From contig JAKASX010000009.1 of the NCBI GenBank assembly GCA_021818865.1, positions 1 to 59,389 of the forward strand: a stretch of 59,389 nt of DNA, read 5' to 3'. The notes below the pieces were generated by a model. That model searched no databases. It was given only the letters and a program-made list of their open reading frames with translations, and was not told the origin of the DNA. This DNA is from Acidobacteriota bacterium (GTDB taxonomy: Bacteria; Acidobacteriota; Terriglobia; Acidiferrales; UBA7541). This document shows positions 25,483-36,615 of the stretch, in pieces. The position numbers were made by a program, and so were the translations under genes. Position 1 is the first letter of the stretch. The number at the start of each line of letters is the position of its first letter.

Positions 25483-26859
25483 ATGGAACGCGAATCCTCT
25501 CCGCATCTGGTACGAGGCTTCGGCCTCGTCGGCGCGACCGCGCTGAATATGTCCAACATGGTCGGCGTGGGGCCGTTCATTTCGATTCCGCTGCTGCTCG
25601 CGGCGATGAACGGGCCGCAAAGCATGCTCGGATGGATTCTGGGCGCGCTGCTTGCCGCATGCGACGGCCTCGTATGGAGCGAACTCGGCGCCGCGCTCCC
25701 GGGCTCGGGCGGAAGTTACCGGTTCCTGCGCGAAACCTACGGCCCGGAAACGTTCGGGCGGTTGATGGCCTTCCTTTTCATCTGGCAATTTGTTTTGAGC
25801 GGACCGCTCGAAATTGCTTCGGGCATGATTGGATTTTCCGATTACGCGGGCTATTTATGGCCGGGGATGACGCCGCTCGAGGGGAAATTCGTCGCCGCGG
25901 GCGTGGGCCTGCTCGCGCTCGCCTTTTTGTATCGGCGAACGACCGTCCTGAGCCGGCTCACCGTGACTCTGTGGCTCGGCACGGTGCTGACGATGGCGGC
26001 GATTCTGGCGGTGGGACTTCCGCATGCGAACTTTCACCAGGCGTTTGCGTTTCCGCCTCACGCGTTCGCGTTTGGTAGCGGATTCGCGATGGGACTCGGC
26101 AGCGCGACGCTCGTGGCGATGTACAACTATCTGGGCTATTACGACGTTTGCTACATCGGCGACGAAGTTCGCGAGCCTGCGCGCGTGATTCCGCGCTCGA
26201 TTCTGCTGTCGGTCGCGGCCTGCGCTGTCGCTTACGCGGCGATCAACGTGGCGCTCATCGGCGTGGTGCCGTGGCGACAGGCAATGCATTCGCCGTTTTT
26301 GGTTTCGGAATTCATGGGCCGGCTCTACGGCCGGCCGGCGGCGATTGCGATTACGGTGATGATTTTGTGGACGGCGTTCGGCTCGGTGTTCGCGCTGCTG
26401 CTCGGCTATTCGCGGATTCCCTACGCCGCGGCGATGGACGGTAATTTCTTTCGCCCATTCGCGCGGCTGCATCCGAAGAAGAATTTTCCGCACGTCTCGC
26501 TGCTGACGGTTTCCGCGATCGCGATCGTCGCGGCGTTTTTCCGACTGGACGTGGTGATCGCGGCGCTGATCACCACGCGCGTGTTGGTGCAGTTCATCGG
26601 GCAGATTTTCGCGTTGCCGCTATTGCGCCGGAAATTCCGCGAATCGGCGCGGCCTTACAAAATGTGGCTTTATCCGCTGCCGGCCATCGTGGCGCTTGCC
26701 GGATGGATCGCGGTGTTTCTGTCTTCAGGCATGCGTTACGTCCTGTTCGGCCTGTTGACGCTGCTGGCGGGGCTCGGCGTCTTTTTTCTGCGCGCGCGCT
26801 GGACGCGCAGTTGGCCGTTCGTCCACGCTTCAAACCAACCCGCCGCTCCCGCTCCGTAA
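25483..26859 (+). CDS. APC-superfamily amino acid permease
   Basis: A 458-residue protein with about 12 transmembrane helices. The opening GLVGATALNMSNMVGVGPFI matches helix 1 of APC transporters with its unwound Gly-rich substrate site. The GSGGSYRFLRETYG and YLGYYDVCYIGDEVREPARVIPR segments are typical of the amino acid/polyamine/organocation family. Substrate not deducible. TAGAAT at 25468-25473 ends nine bases before the ATG, so transcription may start almost at the start codon. Confidence 0.92.
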   Translation: MERESSPHLVRGFGLVGATALNMSNMVGVGPFISIPLLLAAMNGPQSMLGWILGALLAACDGLVWSELGAALPGSGGSYRFLRETYGPETFGRLMAFLFIWQFVLSGPLEIASGMIGFSDYAGYLWPGMTPLEGKFVAAGVGLLALAFLYRRTTVLSRLTVTLWLGTVLTMAAILAVGLPHANFHQAFAFPPHAFAFGSGFAMGLGSATLVAMYNYLGYYDVCYIGDEVREPARVIPRSILLSVAACAVAYAAINVALIGVVPWRQAMHSPFLVSEFMGRLYGRPAAIAITVMILWTAFGSVFALLLGYSRIPYAAAMDGNFFRPFARLHPKKNFPHVSLLTVSAIAIVAAFFRLDVVIAALITTRVLVQFIGQIFALPLLRRKFRESARPYKMWLYPLPAIVALAGWIAVFLSSGMRYVLFGLLTLLAGLGVFFLRARWTRSWPFVHASNQPAAPAP

Positions 26860-26920
26860 GGCGGCCTGGGCCGCGAAGGATTCTTGCGAACCGCGCCGGC
26901 GCCCCGGAGCGACGCCTGCT

Positions 26921-27343
26921 TCACGGATCCACGATGAGTTCACCCTTCATCCGCTTGTGGCCGAATCCGCAAAAGTGGCAGCAATGGAAAGGATACGTGC
27001 CGGGAGTTTTCGCTACGAACTCGATGATCGTTGTCTTTCCCTTGGGCAGGTTCCAACACCTGCGAGGCGAGTCGAAGACGAGCCCTGGCGCCGCATTTTT
27101 GCCCGATCCCACCGGCGTGAGTTGGATGGAAAAACCGTGCCTATGATCGATTGCAGTGATTCGCAGCTCGACTTTCGTTCCCTGCTTGACGTGAATCGGC
27201 GACGGATCGAATTCGTATTTTTTCGCTGTGACGTTGATGATCTGGACATTAGGGGCGCTCGTTGCCGCCTTGCGCGAAGGCGGGGCCGTGGCCGCAAGGG
27301 TCAGCACAATTGCCAGAAGAGGCGCGCGATTGAGCATTCCCAT
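26921..27343 (-). CDS. Small secreted cupredoxin with complete CuA-type ligand set
   Basis: A 140-residue protein from the ATG at 27341-27343, with a GGAGGGGGGAACC ribosome site. The signal peptide is about 1-25 (MGMLNRAPLLAIVLTLAATA). A cupredoxin barrel follows: YEFDPSPIHVKQGTKVEL, then DHRHGFSIQL, and a C-terminal loop FHCCHFCGFGHKRM. Ligand spacing C121-x3-C125-x3-H129-x2-M132 plus H69 is exactly that of binuclear CuA centres in cytochrome oxidase subunit II and nitrous-oxide reductase. An additional C122 and flanking H120/H123 are unusual. It is a probable periplasmic electron carrier or copper chaperone. No oxidase genes are nearby; the next gene upstream is boxD, 262 bases away. Confidence 0.85.
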   Translation of the reverse strand: MGMLNRAPLLAIVLTLAATAPPSRKAATSAPNVQIINVTAKKYEFDPSPIHVKQGTKVELRITAIDHRHGFSIQLTPVGSGKNAAPGLVFDSPRRCWNLPKGKTTIIEFVAKTPGTYPFHCCHFCGFGHKRMKGELIVDP

Positions 27344-27605
27344 GGCAGGTTCCCCCCTCCAACCGGAAGAACGGCTTCTCGCGAACAACGCCGCTGCCTC
27401 AGGAAGTCGATTCCTGATTCCGGTCCGTTTGCAGCGAATCGTTTCGCGCGGCACGCCGCTCCAGACAACAGTATGCCGGGCTCGCGGCCGTAGCAACTCC
27501 AATCTTTCCGCCGTTCGCGCGGGCGCTCCAGAACAAGAACGCGTAGCGCCGCGGAATTGTCCCGCGTGCGGGCAGATGGCTCGGTGGTGCGTTGGGACCG
27601 TCTGA

Positions 27606-29186
27606 TTACGCGTAGAGGAGTTGCGAATCGGCGCAGCGCTCCGCCATGGAATCGAGCAACGAGGGAGGACCCTGCACAACGAACCGGCGATGGTAGAAGA
27701 GCAGCGCGCGCAACGCCGCTAGCTCTTCGCCGCCGCCGGCGCGGCCGGGACCGCCATGCAGGCAGCTCGGCACCACGTTGCCGTGGCCGGTGTGCTGTGC
27801 GCCGACCGAAGGATCCACGGCCACGATGCGGCCATGCAGGCCGGAAATTCCCAGCGTGAGCGCGCGGAGGAAATCGGCATCGGCGGAAAAAACTGACGCG
27901 ACGAGCGACCCGAGGCCGCGTCGCGCGATCTCGACTGCATCGGCAACGCCGTCGTAAGCGATGAGTGTGGCGGCCGGGCCGAAGACTTCCACGTCGTGCA
28001 CCGCGCTCGCCGCCGCGGCATTTTCGCACGCAAGCAGCGTCGGTGGAACGAAGCAGGATTTCCCGGGATCGGCGTCGAGCCGCGCAAAATCGGGATTCCC
28101 GCCGAATATCACCGCGCATTCCTTTCGCAATTCGGCGATTCCTGCGAAACAGGAAGCCTGCTGGGATTTGGTCACCACCGGCCCCATCTTCACTTCCTGG
28201 TTGCGCGGATTGCCCACCTTGATTTCGGCGAGTTTCGCCGCGATGGCATCGGCCGCGGCGCGAAATTGCACGCGAGGAACCAGCACGCGCCGAATCGCGG
28301 TGCATTTCTGTCCGGCTTTCAGCGTCATTTCTCGAACTACTTCCTTCACCAGCAAATCGAAGACCGGCGTGCCGGGCGCGGCGTCCGGGCCGAGAATGGT
28401 GGAATTGATGCTGTCGGCTTCGGCGTTCACGCGGACCGAGCGGCGAAGCACGTTCTGGTGGCCGCGAATGCGCGCGGCATTTTGCGCCGAGCCGGTGAAG
28501 GAAATCACGTCCTCTTCGCCGGCGGCGTCAAGCAGCTCGCGCGCCGATCCGCACAAGATCGAAATCGCACCCGGTGGCAGAATGCCCGCGGCGACAACGT
28601 CGGAAACCATTTTCTGCGTGAGCCACGCCGTCGAAGTGGCCGGTTTCACTACCACGGGCACGCCGGAAAGCAGTGCGGGTGCGGCCTTTTCGCACCAGCC
28701 CCACGCCGGAAAATTGAAGGCGTTGATGAAAATCGCCGCTCCGGCGACCGGCTGAAGGAAATGATCGGCCTGAAAAGCGCCGGTTTTCGAAAGCGGAGCG
28801 CGCGCGCCTTCACGCAGCATGCGGGCGTCGCCCAGGGCGCGCCCGGCCTTGGCAAAATATTTCATCGTGTAGACGGCGCCATCCACGTCAAAGGAAGCGT
28901 CGGGATCCGTGGCGCCGGAATTCAGCAGCGAAATGCGGAAATACTCGGCGCGATTCGCCGCGAGCGTATCCGCGATTTTCCCGAGCAGTTCCGCTCGCTG
29001 CGCGTAGCTCAACTCGCTGAGCGCGACGTGGCCTCTCGATCGCGCAAATGCCAGCGCGGCGGGAATGTCCACGCCTTCGGTCGACGCGCGCGCCAGTTCC
29101 TCGCCCGTGACCGGATCGACGAGCGGATCGCCCGGGCCGCAGCCTTCGACCCATTCGCCGCAAACGTAATTCGCCAGTTTCGTCAT
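27606..29186 (-). CDS. boxD: 3,4-dehydroadipyl-CoA semialdehyde dehydrogenase (box pathway)
   Basis: A 526-residue aldehyde dehydrogenase with the PaaZ/BoxD wording (YVCGEWVEGCGPGDPLVDPVTGE at the start, INAFNFPAWGWCEKAAPALL in the Rossmann part). The catalytic residues are Cys295 in LKAGQKCTAIRR and Glu256 in VNAEADSIN. There is no C-terminal MaoC hydratase domain, so it is BoxD-like and not a PaaZ fusion. In the box pathway it oxidises the semialdehyde formed after ring cleavage to 3,4-dehydroadipyl-CoA with NADP. It is divergent from boxR-C-B across a ~250-base control region. The ribosome site GGGGGAG precedes the ATG. Confidence 0.92.
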   Translation of the reverse strand: MTKLANYVCGEWVEGCGPGDPLVDPVTGEELARASTEGVDIPAALAFARSRGHVALSELSYAQRAELLGKIADTLAANRAEYFRISLLNSGATDPDASFDVDGAVYTMKYFAKAGRALGDARMLREGARAPLSKTGAFQADHFLQPVAGAAIFINAFNFPAWGWCEKAAPALLSGVPVVVKPATSTAWLTQKMVSDVVAAGILPPGAISILCGSARELLDAAGEEDVISFTGSAQNAARIRGHQNVLRRSVRVNAEADSINSTILGPDAAPGTPVFDLLVKEVVREMTLKAGQKCTAIRRVLVPRVQFRAAADAIAAKLAEIKVGNPRNQEVKMGPVVTKSQQASCFAGIAELRKECAVIFGGNPDFARLDADPGKSCFVPPTLLACENAAAASAVHDVEVFGPAATLIAYDGVADAVEIARRGLGSLVASVFSADADFLRALTLGISGLHGRIVAVDPSVGAQHTGHGNVVPSCLHGGPGRAGGGEELAALRALLFYHRRFVVQGPPSLLDSMAERCADSQLLYA

Positions 29187-29418
29187 TGTTTATATCTCCC
29201 CCGCGCCAAACTCGATAGGTTGCGGCAGCAAATCCCGCACGCCGGCAGCGGAAAGCATAGCGCATTCGGCACAATAGTTCATCAAGGGATGGTAACGAGC
29301 CGATCCCGGTTTCGGTAAGACGTTAGTTGCAACTTTAAGCCCTATAAAGAGTTATCAGCGTAGCAGGAAGAAATACCAGCCAATGTTCGAAAAACGAATC
29401 AAGCGGCTGCAGAATACG

Positions 29419-29448
29419 TTGACCTCTATGGGGTGACATGTATTATAT
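29419..29448 (+). promoter_or_regulatory. Probable boxR-boxCB promoter overlapping the nominal boxR start
   Basis: TTGACC at 29419-29424 is followed 16-18 bases later by TATTATAT at 29441-29448. Transcription would start near 29453-29456, downstream of the ATG at 29438 and at or next to the in-frame GTG at 29456. TGCA cores, like those bound by the BzdR/BoxR family, occur at 29328, 29408 and 29449. Confidence 0.5.
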
Positions 29449-30358
29449 TGCATGCGTGGGGGAATTCGTTCAAAACAAACCGCTGCTCGAGGCCGACGGT
29501 GCGCCTACGGATGCCGAATTTCTGTCGTTCCTGGGCCGGCGGGTGCGCCAACTCCGGAATCGGCGCGGAATGACGCGGAAAATGGTGGCGCAGGAAGCCG
29601 ACGTCAGCGAGCGGCACCTGGCGCAGCTCGAAGCGGGCGACGGCAATATTTCCATCCTTCTATTAAGGCGAATCGTGCAGGCGCTCGACGTTTCGCTCGA
29701 AACCCTGTTCGTTCCCGAACCGGAAGTGAGTGAGGAGCGGCTGCGAATCGAGCGGTTTCTCGACAGGATTCCGGCGCACCGGCTGAATGAGGTAATCGAA
29801 CATCTCTCGCGTGAACTGGGCGACGCGCACGACGCGAGGCGGAAACGCATTGCTCTCGTCGGGCTGCGCGGCGCAGGAAAAACGGCGCTTGGAGAGCGGC
29901 TGGCGCGCGAGCGCGGCGTTGCGTTCGTCGAACTCGATCGGGAAATCGAAAAAGACGCAGGCATGCCGCTCGACGAAATTTTTTCGCTCTACGGGCAATC
30001 GGGCTACCGGCGGATCGAAAGCCGCGCTCTCGACCGCGTGCTCGCCGAGTACGGAAACGCGGTGATTGCGGCGGGCGGCGGCGTGGTTTCCGAAGAGGAA
30101 ACTTACGCGCGGCTACGGGCGAATTGCTACACCGTGTGGATCAAGGCGCGGCCCGAGGAATACATGGCGCGCGTGGTGGCGCAGGGCGACCGGCGCGCCA
30201 TCGCCGCGGGCGGCGAAGCGCGCGAGGATTTGCGCCGAATTCTGGAAGCGCGGGAGCCGCTTTATCGCAAGGCGGATCTGCAGTTCGACAATTCCGGCGA
30301 TTCGATCGATGCGAATTTTAGCCGGCTCGCCGCAGCTTTGCGGGCCGAACTCGGCTAA
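29438..30358 (+). CDS. boxR: BoxR: benzoyl-CoA-responsive repressor (HTH + shikimate-kinase-like domain)
   Basis: A 306-residue protein of two parts. Residues ~30-95 are an XRE-type helix-turn-helix (LGRRVRQLRNRRGMTRKMVAQEADVSERH). Residues ~135-306 are a shikimate-kinase-like P-loop domain with Walker A GLRGAGKTALGERLA. This exact fusion is known as BzdR/BoxR, where the kinase-like half binds benzoyl-CoA and releases DNA. It is the first gene of boxR-boxC-boxB. The nominal ATG lies inside the likely promoter; the GTG at 29456 is the better start if the transcript is leaderless. boxC follows 10 bases after its stop. It should control both this operon and the divergent boxD. Confidence 0.92.
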   Translation: MYYIACVGEFVQNKPLLEADGAPTDAEFLSFLGRRVRQLRNRRGMTRKMVAQEADVSERHLAQLEAGDGNISILLLRRIVQALDVSLETLFVPEPEVSEERLRIERFLDRIPAHRLNEVIEHLSRELGDAHDARRKRIALVGLRGAGKTALGERLARERGVAFVELDREIEKDAGMPLDEIFSLYGQSGYRRIESRALDRVLAEYGNAVIAAGGGVVSEEETYARLRANCYTVWIKARPEEYMARVVAQGDRRAIAAGGEAREDLRRILEAREPLYRKADLQFDNSGDSIDANFSRLAAALRAELG

Positions 30359-30368
30359 GGAGGCAGGC

Positions 30369-32045
30369 GTGGACGCGGCGGCAACGCAAGACAAGGCGCC
30401 AAAATTCGAAGTGGATTACCAGACCGATCCCGCGCGCTACCGGCATTGGCGGCTGGAATTCGACGGCCCCGTGGCGACGCTTGTGATGGACGTGAACGAG
30501 GAAGCACCGCTGCGGCCGGGCTACAAACTGAAGCTGAATTCCTACGATCTAGGGGTTGATATCGAACTGGCTGACGCGCTCGACCGGATCCGCTTCGAGC
30601 ATCCGGAAACGCGAGCGGTGGTTCTGACGAGCGCGAAAAGCCGCGTCTTCTGCTCCGGCGCGAATATTTACATGCTGGGCAGTTCGTCGCATGCCTGGAA
30701 AGTGAATTTCTGCAAATTCACCAACGAAACCCGAAACGGCATCGAAGATTCGAGCCGGCATTCGGGCCTGAAATTTCTGGCCGCGCTCAATGGAACGACG
30801 GCTGGCGGAGGGTACGAACTGGCGCTCGCGTGCGACGAAATCGTTTTGGTGGACGACCGCAATTCCGCGGTGAGTTTGCCGGAATTGCCGCTGCTCGGCG
30901 TTTTGCCGGGCACCGGTGGTCTCACGCGCGTCACCGACAAGCGCAACGTGCGGCGCGATATCGCCGACCTCTTCTGCACCACACCCGACGGCGTAAAGGG
31001 ACAGCGGGCGAAGGATTGGGGACTGGTGGACGCGGTGGTGAAAACGCAGCAGTTCCCCGATTATGTAAAATCCCGCGCACATGAGCTGGCCGCGCAAAGC
31101 GATCGTCCGGCCCAGGCGCGCGGTGTTGCGCTCACACCGCTCGAGCGCGTGGTGGACGCCGCGGGGCGCCACTACAAATTCGTGGACGTGCAGACGGATT
31201 CCGCGGCGCGCACGGCAACGTTTACGATTCGCGGGCCGGAAGGCGTCGCGCCAAAAACGATTGAAGAAGTTCTGGCCGCCGGCGCGCACTGGTGGCCTTT
31301 GCAGATGGCGCGCGAACTCGACGACGCGATTTTGAGTTTGCGCACGAACGGTCTGGAATTGGGATTGTGGATTTTCAAAACCACGGGCAGCGCGGACGCC
31401 GTGCTCGCCATGGACCAGTTTCTCGTCGAGCACGCGGATCATTGGTTCGTGCGCGAAACGATCGGCAAGCTGCGGCGAACGCTGGCGCGGCTGGACGTGA
31501 CGTCGCGCTCGATGTTCGCCGTGATCAAGCCGGGATCGTGTTTCGTCGGAACACTTTTCGAGTTGGCACTGGCGTCCGACCGCAGCTACATGCTGGATGC
31601 GACCGAAGGCCAAGCCGCGAGCGTTGCGCTTTCGGCCATGAATTTCGGCCCGTTGCCGATGGTGAACCAACTGCCGCGTATCGCCGCGCGATTTTATAGC
31701 GACGAATCGGCGATCGAGGCGCTTCGCCATCGCGAGGGGGAAGCCATCGCGCCGCGGGAAGCGGCCGCAGCCGGCATCGTGACCGCAGCGCCCGACGAAC
31801 TCGATTGGGAAGACGAATTGCGCCTGGCGATCGAATCGCGCGCCTCGCTTTCGCCCGACGCGCTCACCGGGCTCGAAGCGAATCTGCGATTCGGATTGCC
31901 GGAAACGATGGAAACGCGAATTTTCGGCCGGCTTTCGGCGTGGCAAAACTGGATTTTCAACCGGCCGAACGCGATCGGCGAGCACGGCGCGCTGAAGGTC
32001 TATGGAACGGGCGCGCCGGTGAAATTCGGCTGGGACCGCGTCTGA
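30369..32045 (+). CDS. boxC: Benzoyl-CoA-dihydrodiol lyase / 2,3-epoxybenzoyl-CoA dihydrolase
   Basis: A 558-residue protein from GTG 30369, which has AAGGAGG nine bases upstream; the open frame extends back into boxR but that part is antisense-quality. The N-terminal half is a crotonase-fold domain with CSGANIYMLGSSSHAWKVNFCKFTNETRNG and ALNGTTAGGGYELALACDE, as in Azoarcus BoxC. The C-terminal half is a second, diverged crotonase-like domain. BoxC hydrolytically opens 2,3-epoxybenzoyl-CoA, releasing formate and yielding 3,4-dehydroadipyl-CoA semialdehyde. Length and wording agree with the family. Cytosolic; between boxR and boxB, 36 bases before the latter. Confidence 0.94.
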   Translation: MDAAATQDKAPKFEVDYQTDPARYRHWRLEFDGPVATLVMDVNEEAPLRPGYKLKLNSYDLGVDIELADALDRIRFEHPETRAVVLTSAKSRVFCSGANIYMLGSSSHAWKVNFCKFTNETRNGIEDSSRHSGLKFLAALNGTTAGGGYELALACDEIVLVDDRNSAVSLPELPLLGVLPGTGGLTRVTDKRNVRRDIADLFCTTPDGVKGQRAKDWGLVDAVVKTQQFPDYVKSRAHELAAQSDRPAQARGVALTPLERVVDAAGRHYKFVDVQTDSAARTATFTIRGPEGVAPKTIEEVLAAGAHWWPLQMARELDDAILSLRTNGLELGLWIFKTTGSADAVLAMDQFLVEHADHWFVRETIGKLRRTLARLDVTSRSMFAVIKPGSCFVGTLFELALASDRSYMLDATEGQAASVALSAMNFGPLPMVNQLPRIAARFYSDESAIEALRHREGEAIAPREAAAAGIVTAAPDELDWEDELRLAIESRASLSPDALTGLEANLRFGLPETMETRIFGRLSAWQNWIFNRPNAIGEHGALKVYGTGAPVKFGWDRV

Positions 32046-32081
32046 CGCGCGCGAATAGTTTCGATTGCGAAGGAGACGGCG

Positions 32082-33506
32082 ATGATTGATTATCTCGACA
32101 AAATCCCCAACAACGTGGATTTGGGGCGCGATCGCGTGTTGCAGCGCGCGCTCGAGCACTGGCAACCGGCCTACCTGAATTGGTGGTTCGACATGGGCCC
32201 GACCGAAAGCCACACGTACGACGTCTACCTTCGCACCGCGACCAGCGTGGAACCAGACGGCTGGGCGCAATTCGGCTACGTGAGGATGCCGGAGTATCGC
32301 TGGGGAATTTTTCTACAGCCGCGCGATTCCGATCGGCAGGTGAATTTCGGCGTGAGCAAAGGGCAGCCGGCGTGGCAGGACGTTCCCGGCGAATTCCGGT
32401 CGCCGTTGCGGCGAATCATCGTGACGCAGGGCGATACCGAACCGGCTTCGGTGGAGCAGCAGCGCACGCTGGGGCTCTCCTGCCCATCGCTCTACGATTT
32501 GCGGAATCTGTTTCAGGTGAACGTCGAGGAGGGCCGGCACCTGTGGGCGATGGTCTATCTGCTCCACCGCTATTTCGGCCGCGACGGCCGCGAAGAAGCG
32601 GAATCGCTGCTCGAACGCCGCTCAGGCGACGCGGATAATCCGCGCATCCTGGGCGCGTTCAACGAACCGACGCCGGACTGGCTGGCGTTTTTCATGTTCA
32701 CGTTTTTCACCGATCGCGACGGCAAATTCCAGTTGAGTGCGCTCGCCGAATCCGGCTTCGATCCGCTGGCGCGCACTTGCCGCTTCATGCTCACCGAGGA
32801 AGCGCACCACATGTTCGTGGGCGAAACCGGCGTCAGCCGGATCATCCGCCGCACGTGCGACGTAATGAAGGAAAACAACGTGGAAGATCCGGCCGACGTT
32901 CGCGCGCTCGGCGCGATCGATCTCCAGACCATCCAGAAATATCTGAATTTCCACTACAGCGTCACACTCGATCTTTTCGGCGGCGACGCTTCCTCGAACG
33001 CGGCCAGCTATTACACCTCTGGCCTCAAAGGCCGCTATGAAGAAACGAAAGTCGGGGACGATCACCTGCTTCAGGACGGCGATTACCCGATTCTCGAAGT
33101 GGGTGGCGACAAAATACTGGAACGCCGCGTGCCCGCGCTGACGGCGTTGAACGAGCGCCTGCGCGACGACTACATCCACGAAATCGAAGCGGGCGTCGAC
33201 CGCTGGAATCGCAATATGGAACGCGCCGGGCTGGCCTTCCGGCTCACGCTCCCCCACAAGGGCTTTCATCGCGCCATCGGGAATTTCGCCGGCCATTTCA
33301 TCAGCCCCGCCGGCGAAGTGCTCAGCGAAGAAGCGTGGCGAAACCGCAGGGACGAATGGCTGCCGAGCGGGCGCGATTACGCGTTCGTACAGTCGCTGAT
33401 GAGCGGGCGCGTGGTGGAACTTGGAAAATTCGCCAACTGGATCTCGCCGCCAGTGCGAGGGATTAATCAGCAACCGATTGATTTCGAATACGTGCGGTTC
33501 AATTGA
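32082..33506 (+). CDS. boxB: Benzoyl-CoA 2,3-epoxidase, di-iron subunit
   Basis: A 474-residue class I di-iron oxygenase, matching the usual BoxB length. Candidate iron ligands sit at E120, E150, H153 (VEEGRH), D211 and E240/H243 (TEEAHHMF), which is the ligand pattern of crystallised Azoarcus BoxB as I recall it. It inserts oxygen into benzoyl-CoA to form the 2,3-epoxide, using electrons from BoxA. GAAGGAGACGGCG precedes the ATG. boxA, the NADPH-dependent reductase, is not present anywhere in the window. The hcr genes follow after 29 bases on the same strand and are probably co-transcribed. Confidence 0.95.
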   Translation: MIDYLDKIPNNVDLGRDRVLQRALEHWQPAYLNWWFDMGPTESHTYDVYLRTATSVEPDGWAQFGYVRMPEYRWGIFLQPRDSDRQVNFGVSKGQPAWQDVPGEFRSPLRRIIVTQGDTEPASVEQQRTLGLSCPSLYDLRNLFQVNVEEGRHLWAMVYLLHRYFGRDGREEAESLLERRSGDADNPRILGAFNEPTPDWLAFFMFTFFTDRDGKFQLSALAESGFDPLARTCRFMLTEEAHHMFVGETGVSRIIRRTCDVMKENNVEDPADVRALGAIDLQTIQKYLNFHYSVTLDLFGGDASSNAASYYTSGLKGRYEETKVGDDHLLQDGDYPILEVGGDKILERRVPALTALNERLRDDYIHEIEAGVDRWNRNMERAGLAFRLTLPHKGFHRAIGNFAGHFISPAGEVLSEEAWRNRRDEWLPSGRDYAFVQSLMSGRVVELGKFANWISPPVRGINQQPIDFEYVRFN

Positions 33507-33535
33507 CGCCGAAGCGCCGGGCGAACCCGCCGAAC

Positions 33536-34024
33536 ATGAAAAAACTGCTGATCACGCTCAACGTCAACGGCCGCGACGTCGAATTCGCCTGCGCGCCGAA
33601 TCAGACGCTGCTCGACGCGCTCCGGCTCGATCTGCGTCTCACCGGATCGAAGCGCGGCTGCGACGATTCCTCCTGCGGCGCGTGCACGGTGGAAATTGAT
33701 GGCGAGCCGATGCTCGCGTGCACGCTGCTCGCCGCCGCGTGCGAAGGCCAGCGCATCCTGACCGTCGAAGGCATCGCCGAGCACGGCGCGCTCGCCGCAA
33801 TTCAGAAAGCCTACGGCGAATGGGGCGGCGCGCAATGCGGATTTTGCACTCCCGGATTCATGATCGCCGTTCATTCCTTACTCGAACAAAATCCCGATCC
33901 CAGTGAAGAAGAGATTCGCGCGGCGCTCAGCGGAAATTTGTGCCGGTGCACCGGCTACAACCAGATGTACCAGGCGGTGAAAGCCGCGATCGAGGCCGAA
34001 AAAGCCGGCCGGAGGGCCTTGTGA
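33536..34024 (+). CDS. hcrC: 4-Hydroxybenzoyl-CoA reductase, gamma (2Fe-2S) subunit
   Basis: A 162-residue subunit of the xanthine-oxidase family with two [2Fe-2S] clusters. The plant-type cluster is held by C42, C47, C50 (GCDDSSCGAC) and C62. The helical-domain cluster is held by C101, C104 (QCGFC) and C136, C138 (LCRC). The start is ATG 33536; a TTG 33 bases earlier overlaps boxB and is less likely. It passes electrons between the molybdenum site and the beta subunit in the dehydroxylation of 4-hydroxybenzoyl-CoA to benzoyl-CoA. Its stop overlaps the hcrA start (GTGA), a sign of translational coupling. Confidence 0.9.
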   Translation: MKKLLITLNVNGRDVEFACAPNQTLLDALRLDLRLTGSKRGCDDSSCGACTVEIDGEPMLACTLLAAACEGQRILTVEGIAEHGALAAIQKAYGEWGGAQCGFCTPGFMIAVHSLLEQNPDPSEEEIRAALSGNLCRCTGYNQMYQAVKAAIEAEKAGRRAL

Positions 34025-36615
34025 ACGAATTTTCGGTGATCGGGAAGCCCGTAGCGCTGGTGGATTCGGCGGGAAAAACCACTGGCCAGGGAAAATACAC
34101 GGACGATCTCTCGATGCCGGGAATGCTCATCGGCAAGATCCTCCATTCGCCCTTGCCGCACGCGCGGATCGTGGGCATCGACGCATCGCGCGCGCTCGCG
34201 CTCGATGGGGTGGTCGCGGTGGCCGTCGGCGCGGACGCGCCGAACAAATACGGGATTTTGCCAGTGGGCCACGACGAAACGGCGCTGGCAGTGGACAAGG
34301 TGCGGTACGTGGGCGACAACGTGGCCTGCGTCGTGGCGGAGTCGGAAGCAATCGCCGAAAAAGCGCTGGAACTCGTTGACGTTCGGTACGAGCCGCTGCC
34401 CGCGTGGTTCGATCCGGAAGATTCCATGCGCGCGGAAACCGACCTGCTCCACGAGCAGCGGCCGCACAACATCGAAAAGGAATATCACCACGCTTTCGGC
34501 GATCCCGCGGCTGGATTCGCACAGGCCGATACGGTGATCGAGGGCCGCTACATCGCGAACGAAGTGACGCACGCGGCGATGGAGCCACATTCGACGCTCG
34601 CCGCGTTCGAAATCGATCCGCAAACGGGCCGGCCCGGCCGATTGACCGTCTGGTCGTCCACGCAAGTTCCCTATTATTTACAGCACAAGCTGAGCATCGT
34701 GCTCGAAATGCCGATGTCGCAGATCCGCGTGATCAAGCCGCTCGTGGGCGGCGGATTCGGCGGCAAAAGCGAAGTGATTCCGCTCGAAATCATCGCGGCC
34801 GTCGCGGCGCGCGAGGCGCGGGCGCCCGTGAAAATCACTTACACGCGCGAGGAAGTGTTCTGGGCGCATCGCGGGCGGCCGCGCACCATCGTGGATTTGA
34901 AAACCGGCGTGACGCGCGATGGGAAAATCACCGCCGTCGCGGCGAAAGTGATTCAGGACGGCGGCGCGTATTGTTCGTACGGCGTGGTGACCATCCTTTA
35001 CGCCGGCGCGCTGCTCGGCGGAGCGCTCTACCAAATACCGAATTTTCAGTACGACGGTTATCGCGTCCTCACGAACAAACCCGCCTGCGGCGCGATGCGC
35101 GGCCACGGCACGGTCAACGTTCGATTCGCGTTCGAAGCGCAACTCGATGAAGCCGCCCAGCGAATCGGGATGGACCCGGTGGAAATCCGCCGGCGGAATC
35201 TGCTCGTGCCGCCATGCGTCACGGTGAATGGATTGCGCGTCGGAAGCTACGGCTTGCCGGAATGCATCGCTCGCGTGGCAGAACGCTCCGGCTGGAGCGA
35301 GCGCAAGGGCAAATTGCCGCGAGGACGCGGCCTGGGAATCGCGTGCAGCCATTACGTGAGTGGCGCGGCGAATTCGATCATCCGCAGCGACATGCCGCAT
35401 TCGACGGTGAACATCAAAATCGATCGCGACGGCGGCGTGGTGGTCTACACCGGCGCTTCGGATATCGGCCAGGGATCGGACACGATGGTGGCGCAGATCG
35501 CCGCGGAAACGCTCGGCTGTTCGCTCGGCCGGGTTCGCGTAGTCGCGGCGGACACCGATCTCACGCCGATCGACATCGGATCGTATTCCAGCCGCGTGAC
35601 GTTCATGAACGGCAATGCGACGCTGCGCGCAGCACAGGCGGTGAAACGCCAGATCGCCGAAGCCGCGGCCAAGCGTATGAATTCCACTCCCGAGGACGTA
35701 ATCATGCGCGGCGATCGCGTGTGGAACCATGGCGCATACGGAGACGAAGGTCCCGGCGCGGTCGAGGAAACAGCAACGATTGCGGCGAGTGGGCGCGTGG
35801 AAGGCCAGATTTTGCGTGGTTCGGTCCAGCAAAAGCGCGCCGAGGAGTGCCCGAAGGACAGAATGACGTTCGAGGAAGCCGTCGTGGCCGCGATTGATTT
35901 TCACGGCGCGCTCGGCGGCTCGGGTTCCTACGCCCCGCCCGTGGAAGCGCGTGGCGGGCATTACAAAGGATCGGGTGTTGGCCCATCGCCAGCCTATTCC
36001 TATTCCGCCCAGGTGGCCGAAGTGAGCGTGGACGAGGAAACCGGCGTCGTGACGGTGCACAAAATCTGGGCGGCGCACGATTGCGGCCGCGCGCTCAATC
36101 CCGTCGCCGTCGAAGGCCAAGTGATCGGATCGGTTTGGATGGGACTCGGGCAGGCGCTGGAAGAGGAATTGGTCTGGAAAGACGGATTGCTGATGAATCC
36201 CGGCCTGCTCGAATACCGCTCGCCTTCCGCGGCGGAATCACCGGAAATCGAATGCATCATCGTGGAAAGCGTGGACCCCGAAGGCCCGTTTGGCGCGAAA
36301 GAAGCGAGTGAGGGCTCGCTGGCCGCGGCGATTCCCGCGATCGCCAACGCGATTCACGACGCTGTGGGCATTCGCCTCCGCGAAGCTCCTTTTACGCCCG
36401 AGCGCGTGTTGGCCGCATTGCGCGCGCAGCGGCCGGAAGCGAAGAAAGTCCGGTTGGCGGGCAACGTGGATCCCGCGCGGCCCGCGACGTTTCGCGAACA
36501 TGGCGGCTCGCTCTGCCACGGCGGGCGCGGGCCGGCGCGGCACCCGCTCGATCCAGCCGTGCGGCGCAAAAGCGCGGCTGGCAGCGCATCGAAGCGCGAG
36601 GATGACGCCCGATGA
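34021..36615 (+). CDS. hcrA: 4-Hydroxybenzoyl-CoA reductase, alpha (molybdopterin) subunit
   Basis: An 864-residue molybdenum hydroxylase large subunit, GTG start at 34021 with a GGAGGG site. The N-terminal Ald_Xan_dh_C domain begins VIGKPVALVDSAGKTTGQGKYTDDL. Molybdopterin segments include VGGGFGGKSE, GACGAMRGHG-type wording (KPACGAMRGHG), GASDIGQGSDT and the active-site glutamate region GPFGAKEASEG. It reduces the phenolic hydroxyl off the ring. It is about 90 residues longer than characterised HcrA: an insertion near residues 590-630 and a Gly/Arg/Pro-rich C-terminal tail of ~60 residues. It overlaps hcrB by 4 bases. Aldehyde or xanthine dehydrogenase alternatives are made unlikely by the hcrB insert. 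Confidence 0.88.
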   Translation: MNEFSVIGKPVALVDSAGKTTGQGKYTDDLSMPGMLIGKILHSPLPHARIVGIDASRALALDGVVAVAVGADAPNKYGILPVGHDETALAVDKVRYVGDNVACVVAESEAIAEKALELVDVRYEPLPAWFDPEDSMRAETDLLHEQRPHNIEKEYHHAFGDPAAGFAQADTVIEGRYIANEVTHAAMEPHSTLAAFEIDPQTGRPGRLTVWSSTQVPYYLQHKLSIVLEMPMSQIRVIKPLVGGGFGGKSEVIPLEIIAAVAAREARAPVKITYTREEVFWAHRGRPRTIVDLKTGVTRDGKITAVAAKVIQDGGAYCSYGVVTILYAGALLGGALYQIPNFQYDGYRVLTNKPACGAMRGHGTVNVRFAFEAQLDEAAQRIGMDPVEIRRRNLLVPPCVTVNGLRVGSYGLPECIARVAERSGWSERKGKLPRGRGLGIACSHYVSGAANSIIRSDMPHSTVNIKIDRDGGVVVYTGASDIGQGSDTMVAQIAAETLGCSLGRVRVVAADTDLTPIDIGSYSSRVTFMNGNATLRAAQAVKRQIAEAAAKRMNSTPEDVIMRGDRVWNHGAYGDEGPGAVEETATIAASGRVEGQILRGSVQQKRAEECPKDRMTFEEAVVAAIDFHGALGGSGSYAPPVEARGGHYKGSGVGPSPAYSYSAQVAEVSVDEETGVVTVHKIWAAHDCGRALNPVAVEGQVIGSVWMGLGQALEEELVWKDGLLMNPGLLEYRSPSAAESPEIECIIVESVDPEGPFGAKEASEGSLAAAIPAIANAIHDAVGIRLREAPFTPERVLAALRAQRPEAKKVRLAGNVDPARPATFREHGGSLCHGGRGPARHPLDPAVRRKSAAGSASKREDDAR

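Follow-up and report, generated by a model that had tools for sequence, protein, structure and literature searches.

In cytochrome oxidase and N2O reductase, electrons enter at the CuA site. Soluble one-electron carriers include blue copper proteins and mono-haem cytochromes c. Outside the two enzymes, a CuA-type site has been described in PmoD of methanotrophs, a stand-alone CuA protein and small periplasmic cupredoxin whose CuA spans a homodimer and uses a Cx7MxHxnC ligand set, the protein having in addition a C-terminal transmembrane helix (PMC6189053). Its authors set the PmoD site apart from every CuA centre characterized before it (PMC6189053). A literature search that covered few subscription journals returned no description of a stand-alone CuA family with canonical ligands, and none is described in the available portions of PMC10654088, PMC13122619 and PMC8239418. 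Here we discuss a protein encoded in what we call the window, i.e. the whole stretch of 59,389 nucleotides that was analysed (contig JAKASX010000009.1 of assembly GCA_021818865.1, from an Acidobacteriota bacterium). It shares with PmoD the format of a small cupredoxin, probably periplasmic, with a CuA-type site outside oxidase and NosZ, but differs from it in having the canonical ligand set within one chain. In the window protein, C125 to M132 reads C-x6-M and there is no C-x7-M, hence the PmoD/AmoD motif Cx7MxHxnC is not found in it.

The gene lies on the minus strand, as do all the parts of it listed below, and runs from 27343 to 26921 as an open reading frame for 140 residues plus a stop (26921..27343), for which homologues were found and which we list as a stand-alone CuA-type cupredoxin. 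Upstream, GGAGGGGGG (27352..27360), 5' of the ATG at 27343, is a likely ribosome-binding site of the GGAGG type. A scan of 26700-27800 found no promoter, and two terminator-like sites in the same interval compare with 1.6 expected. The protein starts with MGMLNR, followed, as judged by eye, by a hydrophobic segment that extends to approximately residue 19. This export signal-like stretch (approximately residues 1-20, 27284..27343) falls within residues 1-30, where the confidence of the structural model is low, and its character suggests that the protein is probably exported across the inner membrane. Residues 31-140 (26924..27253) make up the predicted cupredoxin domain. The first-pass annotation had named H69, C121, C125, H129 and M132 as CuA ligands, and the translated frame confirms both these positions and the exact CuA spacing. 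H69 (27137..27139) is the N-terminal ligand, and the other four are located in the loop C121-C122-H-F-C125-G-F-G-H129-K-R-M132 (26948..26983), which was identified by motif scan and alignment; C122 and H123 lie within it, and H120 directly before it. The motif C-x3-C-x3-H-x2-M is present once in the protein, as CCHFCGFGHKRM, and arose 19 times when the protein was shuffled 200,000 times, a count that requires neither the upstream His nor the fold.

The window protein belongs to the generic Pfam family Cupredoxin_1 (PF13473, 52.1 bits against a gathering cut-off of 27), and it displays a CuA site in the sense of a His followed by C-x3-C-x3-H-x2-M on a cupredoxin fold. The AlphaFold2 model, for which the input was seven aligned sequences, has a mean pLDDT of 85.5 and values of at least 90 over most of residues 31-140. 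The nearest sequences of solved structure are Thermus ba3 CuA domains (E 2.5e-12), and in structural comparisons, which matched model residues 30-140 and in which Z-values less than 1 apart are treated as ties, the model superimposes best on CuA domains, namely on 2cua from Thermus ba3 with a Z of 13.4 (rmsd 1.5 Å, 94 residues, 31% identity) and on the CuA domain of 6pty with a Z of 13.6 (1.5-1.6 Å, 94 residues). The Thermus domain thus shares with the window protein the cupredoxin fold and all five side-chain ligands at equal spacing, whereas the window protein has no linked subunit I and is distinguished by a loop about 16 residues longer and by the additional C96 and C122. However, E. coli CyoA, which has no CuA, also scores a Z of 13.4, and therefore it is the ligands, and not the fold by itself, that identify CuA. 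Other matches are NosZ (Z about 12), nitrosocyanin (11.9) and 4hcf (12.9), a Cupredoxin_1 protein of B. anthracis that is alike in both fold and family model. The matches to proteins other than CuA domains (CyoA, 4hcf and nitrosocyanin) are what might be expected of a mononuclear cupredoxin, whether blue, green or red and nitrosocyanin-like, in which the CuA motif would reflect ancestry only. We consider this unlikely, since the best sequence matches are to CuA and in NCBIfam the window protein has no match to the nitrosocyanin model TIGR03096 up to an E of 1; this model does match a homologue from Ilyobacter, but below its cut-off.

How well the site is conserved bears on the same question. 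One hundred domains were aligned, comprising 24 from acidobacterial CoxII, 11 that are NosZ-like (an open frame of more than 600 amino acids with the loop motif, L038 alone having been compared with a NosZ model) and 65 stand-alones, which were gathered by likeness to the window protein and are defined simply as lying outside the other two sets. The last set consequently takes in L079, in which a stand-alone-type CuA domain is fused to some 350 further residues, and L094, where the fusion adds some 500; inspection of L089 by eye points to a membrane stretch. The complete set of five ligands is retained in 63 of the 65 stand-alone domains, H69 likewise being His in 63, and this figure includes L024:1573-1935, in which three extra residues separate the second Cys from the His (CSVQCSMIGHGHDRM). 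Both bridging Cys, which a one-copper site would not need, are found in 65/65. In the two exceptions, Leu replaces H69 (L027), or Asp replaces H69 and Leu replaces M132 (L080), which implies that a normal CuA site is impossible in some members and lends the mononuclear reading a measure of support. A plasmid-borne homologue from Cupriavidus (L154) is without the first His and, together with L027 and L080, makes up a group of relatives with lost CuA ligands that possibly bind one copper or none. An earlier alignment (A1) held 29 of 35 sequences and omitted L016, L018 and L023 (cut off), the NosZ-like L038 and the odd L024 and L027, so that ligand invariance in it partly reflects the selection of rows, 63/65 being the representative figure. 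With a predicted fold, structural matches and conservation behind it, the description of a stand-alone protein with a full CuA ligand set is well founded.

The HCCHFC stretch is a different matter. The first-pass annotation had seen a cluster in the residues around the two bridging Cys, and these residues are indeed present, but their status as a conserved metal cluster has to be rejected as stated because neither His is conserved: among the 65 stand-alone domains, a His occupies position 120 in 7 cases and position 123 in 13. The Cys next to ligand C121 has a distribution of its own. C122 is Cys in 20 of the 100 domains, all of them stand-alones, and in 19 of these 20 a second Cys is found in column 96 (19/65 stand-alones, every one with C122), while none of the 80 domains that lack C122 has a Cys in the loop that includes column 96. 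The remaining C122 domain, L086, has no loop Cys and has one at position 72 instead. In the window protein, the proposed partner residue C96 (27056..27058) is followed by W97 in the loop of residues 79-100 (27044..27109), which according to the alignment exceeds that of most relatives by about 16 residues and is present in the taxonomic family of the window genome (f1). The pairing of the two Cys is seen both with this long loop, in the branch of the window protein, and without it, in L071 and L072 from another taxonomic family. The co-occurrence gives a Fisher value of 1.5e-19, which is too strong because the rows are related. In a tree built without these columns, the C122 trait changes four times and the loop-Cys trait three times, and on well-supported branches the link between them comes down to one independent pair, for which a sign test is not significant. 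Since Cys at 96 goes with C122, a C96-C122 disulfide is the simplest reading and is what the alignment suggests; both Cys are also kept in L027 despite the loss of H69, as expected of a structural bond. Alternatively, a copper site may use the thiols of C96 and C122. For a mononuclear cupredoxin it is relevant that a C122 tied to C96, directly beside ligand C121, could alter the site.

The first-pass annotation had proposed a phylogeny against CoxII, NosZ and Sco proteins. A Sco link is unsupported, as PF02630 (SCO1-SenC) gave no Pfam match to the window protein up to an E of 1. The comparison with the other two bears on whether the protein works within a larger enzyme, either as a haem-copper oxidase subunit II encoded at a separate locus or as a CuA half split off from NosZ. 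Such an origin could be read into the NCBIfam matches, of which the best is to the CuA end of the lactonase-type L-NosZ (60.5 bits against a cut-off of 700), with NosZ_Gp at 44.3 bits (cut-off 625) and CoxB at 34.2 bits (cut-off 147.7), although these cut-offs are whole-protein ones and the window protein is far below all of them. The Pfam COX2 model gives 13.1 bits against a cut-off of 22. With 140 amino acids and scores below the cut-offs of these models, the protein does not qualify as a nitrous-oxide reductase, which comprises a beta-propeller and a CuA domain; it has the ligand set in common with the C-terminal CuA domain of NosZ (clade I/II and the lactonase-type L-NosZ) but is devoid of a beta-propeller or CuZ part. 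Nor does it qualify as an oxidase subunit II, since it scores below the COX2 and CoxB cut-offs and is not coded with subunit I. The only COX1 and COX2 matches of its own genome are about 185 bases apart on contig C129, whereas the window is contig C114, so that the gene is coded apart from any oxidase, as had been claimed, and the CoxII encoded beside COX1 has intact CuA ligands of its own in the alignment. L-NosZ scores over its cut-off in none of 101 genomes (the own genome and 100 relatives).

The trees point the same way, with the proviso that roughly 100 columns restrict every inference drawn from them. A careful tree of 73 rows and 101 columns, for which 31 of the 100 aligned rows were dropped (including the long-branch L080, L089, L094 and L151) and four were added, splits 14 acidobacterial CoxII rows from all others with support of 100/97, and because of this split the stand-alones do not appear to be recent cast-offs of the resident CoxII. 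The other side of the split holds the stand-alones, the NosZ-like and ba3-type CuA domains and the Ilyobacter and Cupriavidus proteins. Within it, the NosZ-like domains form a clade of their own (100/99) and the ba3-type CuA groups with a Methylobacterium CoxII (100/97), but the branching order among these groups is unsupported. A quick tree nests the NosZ-like domains within the stand-alone set, a placement that is weakly supported. Altogether, a role as a dispersed part of either enzyme is very improbable.

Far from being rare, as had been supposed, such proteins are frequent in Acidobacteriota. A match at E 1e-8 or better was found in 39/101 genomes, a count that includes the 670-amino-acid NosZ-like frame of G008 and two weak matches of 29-30% identity (G026 and G043). 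In a phylum-wide sample, the family profile was matched at 1e-12 in 101/396 genomes; in 16 of these the match was only in frames of at least 600 amino acids, and in 85/396 there was a match in an open frame below 600 amino acids, among which some frames of 450-500 amino acids may be fusions and a few may be NosZ fragments. The named relatives are five Acidobacteriota records and one proteobacterial MAG, and among plasmid records the motif is present in a 'cupredoxin domain-containing protein' of Ilyobacter. A stand-alone CuA-type family is thus apparently widespread and unstudied, with a possible role in electron or copper transport outside the inner membrane. Haem-copper oxidase subunit I (COX1) is missing in 3/85 genomes with a member and in 61/311 without one, but these are raw genome counts in which relatedness may explain the difference, and the association could reflect nothing else than 'aerobic lineages'. 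In f1, at most one COX1 match was found in 9/24 genomes with the protein as opposed to 0/35 without it (the weakly matching G026 and G043 being excluded, and one of the nine being a 59%-complete genome without a COX1 match). The idea that the protein marks genomes with a single oxidase was dropped when this pattern was not repeated in another family (f11), where none of 27 genomes with a match to the protein had a single COX1 match, at most four candidates having been scored per genome.

Downstream of the window gene lies a convergent amino acid permease (25483..26859, plus strand; Pfam), which we place outside the system. Upstream, 262 bases away, is a boxD-like gene (27606..29186, minus strand) that scores 766.8 bits against a cut-off of 444 with the model for 3,4-dehydroadipyl-CoA semialdehyde dehydrogenase, and it too is thought to be outside the system. 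It opens an aerobic benzoyl-CoA (box) cluster (window 27606-36615) in which boxD, a boxR-type regulator with a shikimate kinase domain, boxC and boxB are followed by a 2Fe-2S subunit and then by a 4-hydroxybenzoyl-CoA reductase alpha-type subunit. The first-pass annotation was right that the gene is next to boxD, but little can be made of it, as the adjacency is confined to the window and one congener, i.e. 2/26 loci (of which L033 and L048 overlap). An electron donor or other partner of the box (benzoyl-CoA epoxidase) pathway, which that adjacency and the box genes that follow might evoke, is therefore hardly credible, all the more so since the box enzymes reside in the cytoplasm, whereas the window protein, judged by eye, seems to be exported; this link was rejected.

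In general, the neighbours of the window gene (by Pfam) and of its close relatives (by eye) are unrelated metabolic genes. No cytochrome gene was found within four ORFs in 23 loci (the window, close relatives and a few more, without L033, L048 and L060, where the family ORF was outcompeted by an overlapping one), the sole CXXCH in that scan being in a 418-amino-acid ORF four genes off in L055. In a few lineages, the situation is different: in 3/20 further acidobacterial loci, which is a small number, the CuA gene is directly followed on its own strand by one for a mono-haem cytochrome c (PF13442; L138:5242-5718, L140:3795-4298 and L150:4300-4836), and these loci belong to three families other than that of the window. 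Several other neighbours recur. A metallophosphoesterase gene precedes the CuA gene in L140 (Pfam) and in L141 and L144 (by eye); a DUF5777 membrane beta-barrel gene comes next after it in L145:3906-4814 and L147:5101-6258 (Pfam) and in L142 (by eye); and a Ferritin_2 gene precedes it in L057:1725-5435 (Pfam) and, by likeness, in L053 and L058, a PAP2-family gene also lying before it in L057 and L058. The Ilyobacter plasmid homologue (L153:4881-5273) has a lipoprotein-like start by eye.

The main rival to an electron carrier is a periplasmic copper store or chaperone, whose CuA-like pocket would hand copper to CoxII or other cuproproteins in place of PCuAC. In bacteria, CuA assembly uses Sco and PCuAC, and PCuAC is itself cupredoxin-like (PMC6696091), which makes such a replacement conceivable. 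The own genome has one Sco match, five CBB3-type cytochrome c domains and no PCuAC match. PCuAC was found in 1/101 genomes, the own included, although COX2 was found in 60/61 genomes searched and all 24 aligned CoxII domains have CuA ligands, suggesting that CuA assembly may do without PCuAC here. However, PCuAC is equally missing in relatives without a stand-alone protein, and since there is no complementary pattern, genome content is uninformative on this point and the case for a PCuAC substitute built upon it was set aside. The window protein itself has no Pfam match to the PCuAC model PF04314 up to an E of 1. The Ilyobacter homologue, which lies near genes for a multicopper-oxidase-domain protein and a periplasmic heavy-metal sensor, speaks for copper handling. 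Against it, the neighbours of the window gene (Pfam) and of its f1 relatives (by eye) include no recognisable copper-homeostasis gene, and the full ligand set including Met, kept in 63/65 stand-alone domains, is beyond the need of a delivery site. A store or chaperone is thus possible but, in our estimation, doubtful.

The canonical ligands, the fold, the likely export and the cytochrome c neighbours in a few lineages make us favour a free periplasmic CuA electron carrier, with a C96-C122 disulfide in the branch of the window protein, a reading derived from sequence and model to which we give about an even chance. According to this proposal, the protein would be exported across the inner membrane and fold as a cupredoxin, and two copper ions would be bound between C121 and C125, with H69, H129, M132 and the backbone carbonyl of H123 completing a canonical CuA. 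The loaded protein would then act as a small periplasmic one-electron carrier, in the manner of cytochrome c or a blue copper protein, with which it would share the soluble carrier role but not the metal site, and would be linked to the aerobic respiratory chain through electron exchange with c-type cytochromes. In the window branch, the putative C96-C122 disulfide would tie the ligand loop to the neighbouring strand and stiffen or tune the site.

The wider picture can only be sketched tentatively. Free CuA carriers, some of them disulfide-locked, might occur throughout the phylum, so that canonical CuA would have a third natural setting in addition to oxidases and NosZ, and they might perhaps be the stock from which NosZ drew its CuA; this last idea comes from the weakly supported nesting of NosZ-like domains among the stand-alones in the quick tree, the careful tree supporting no particular order. 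A natural soluble single-domain protein with a complete canonical site would make CuA a free electron carrier too. If true, stand-alone CuA would provide a ready-made small CuA model protein and would bear on how oxidases and NosZ gained their CuA domains, while the C96-C122 disulfide, if real, would represent a natural experiment in tuning the CuA ligand loop.
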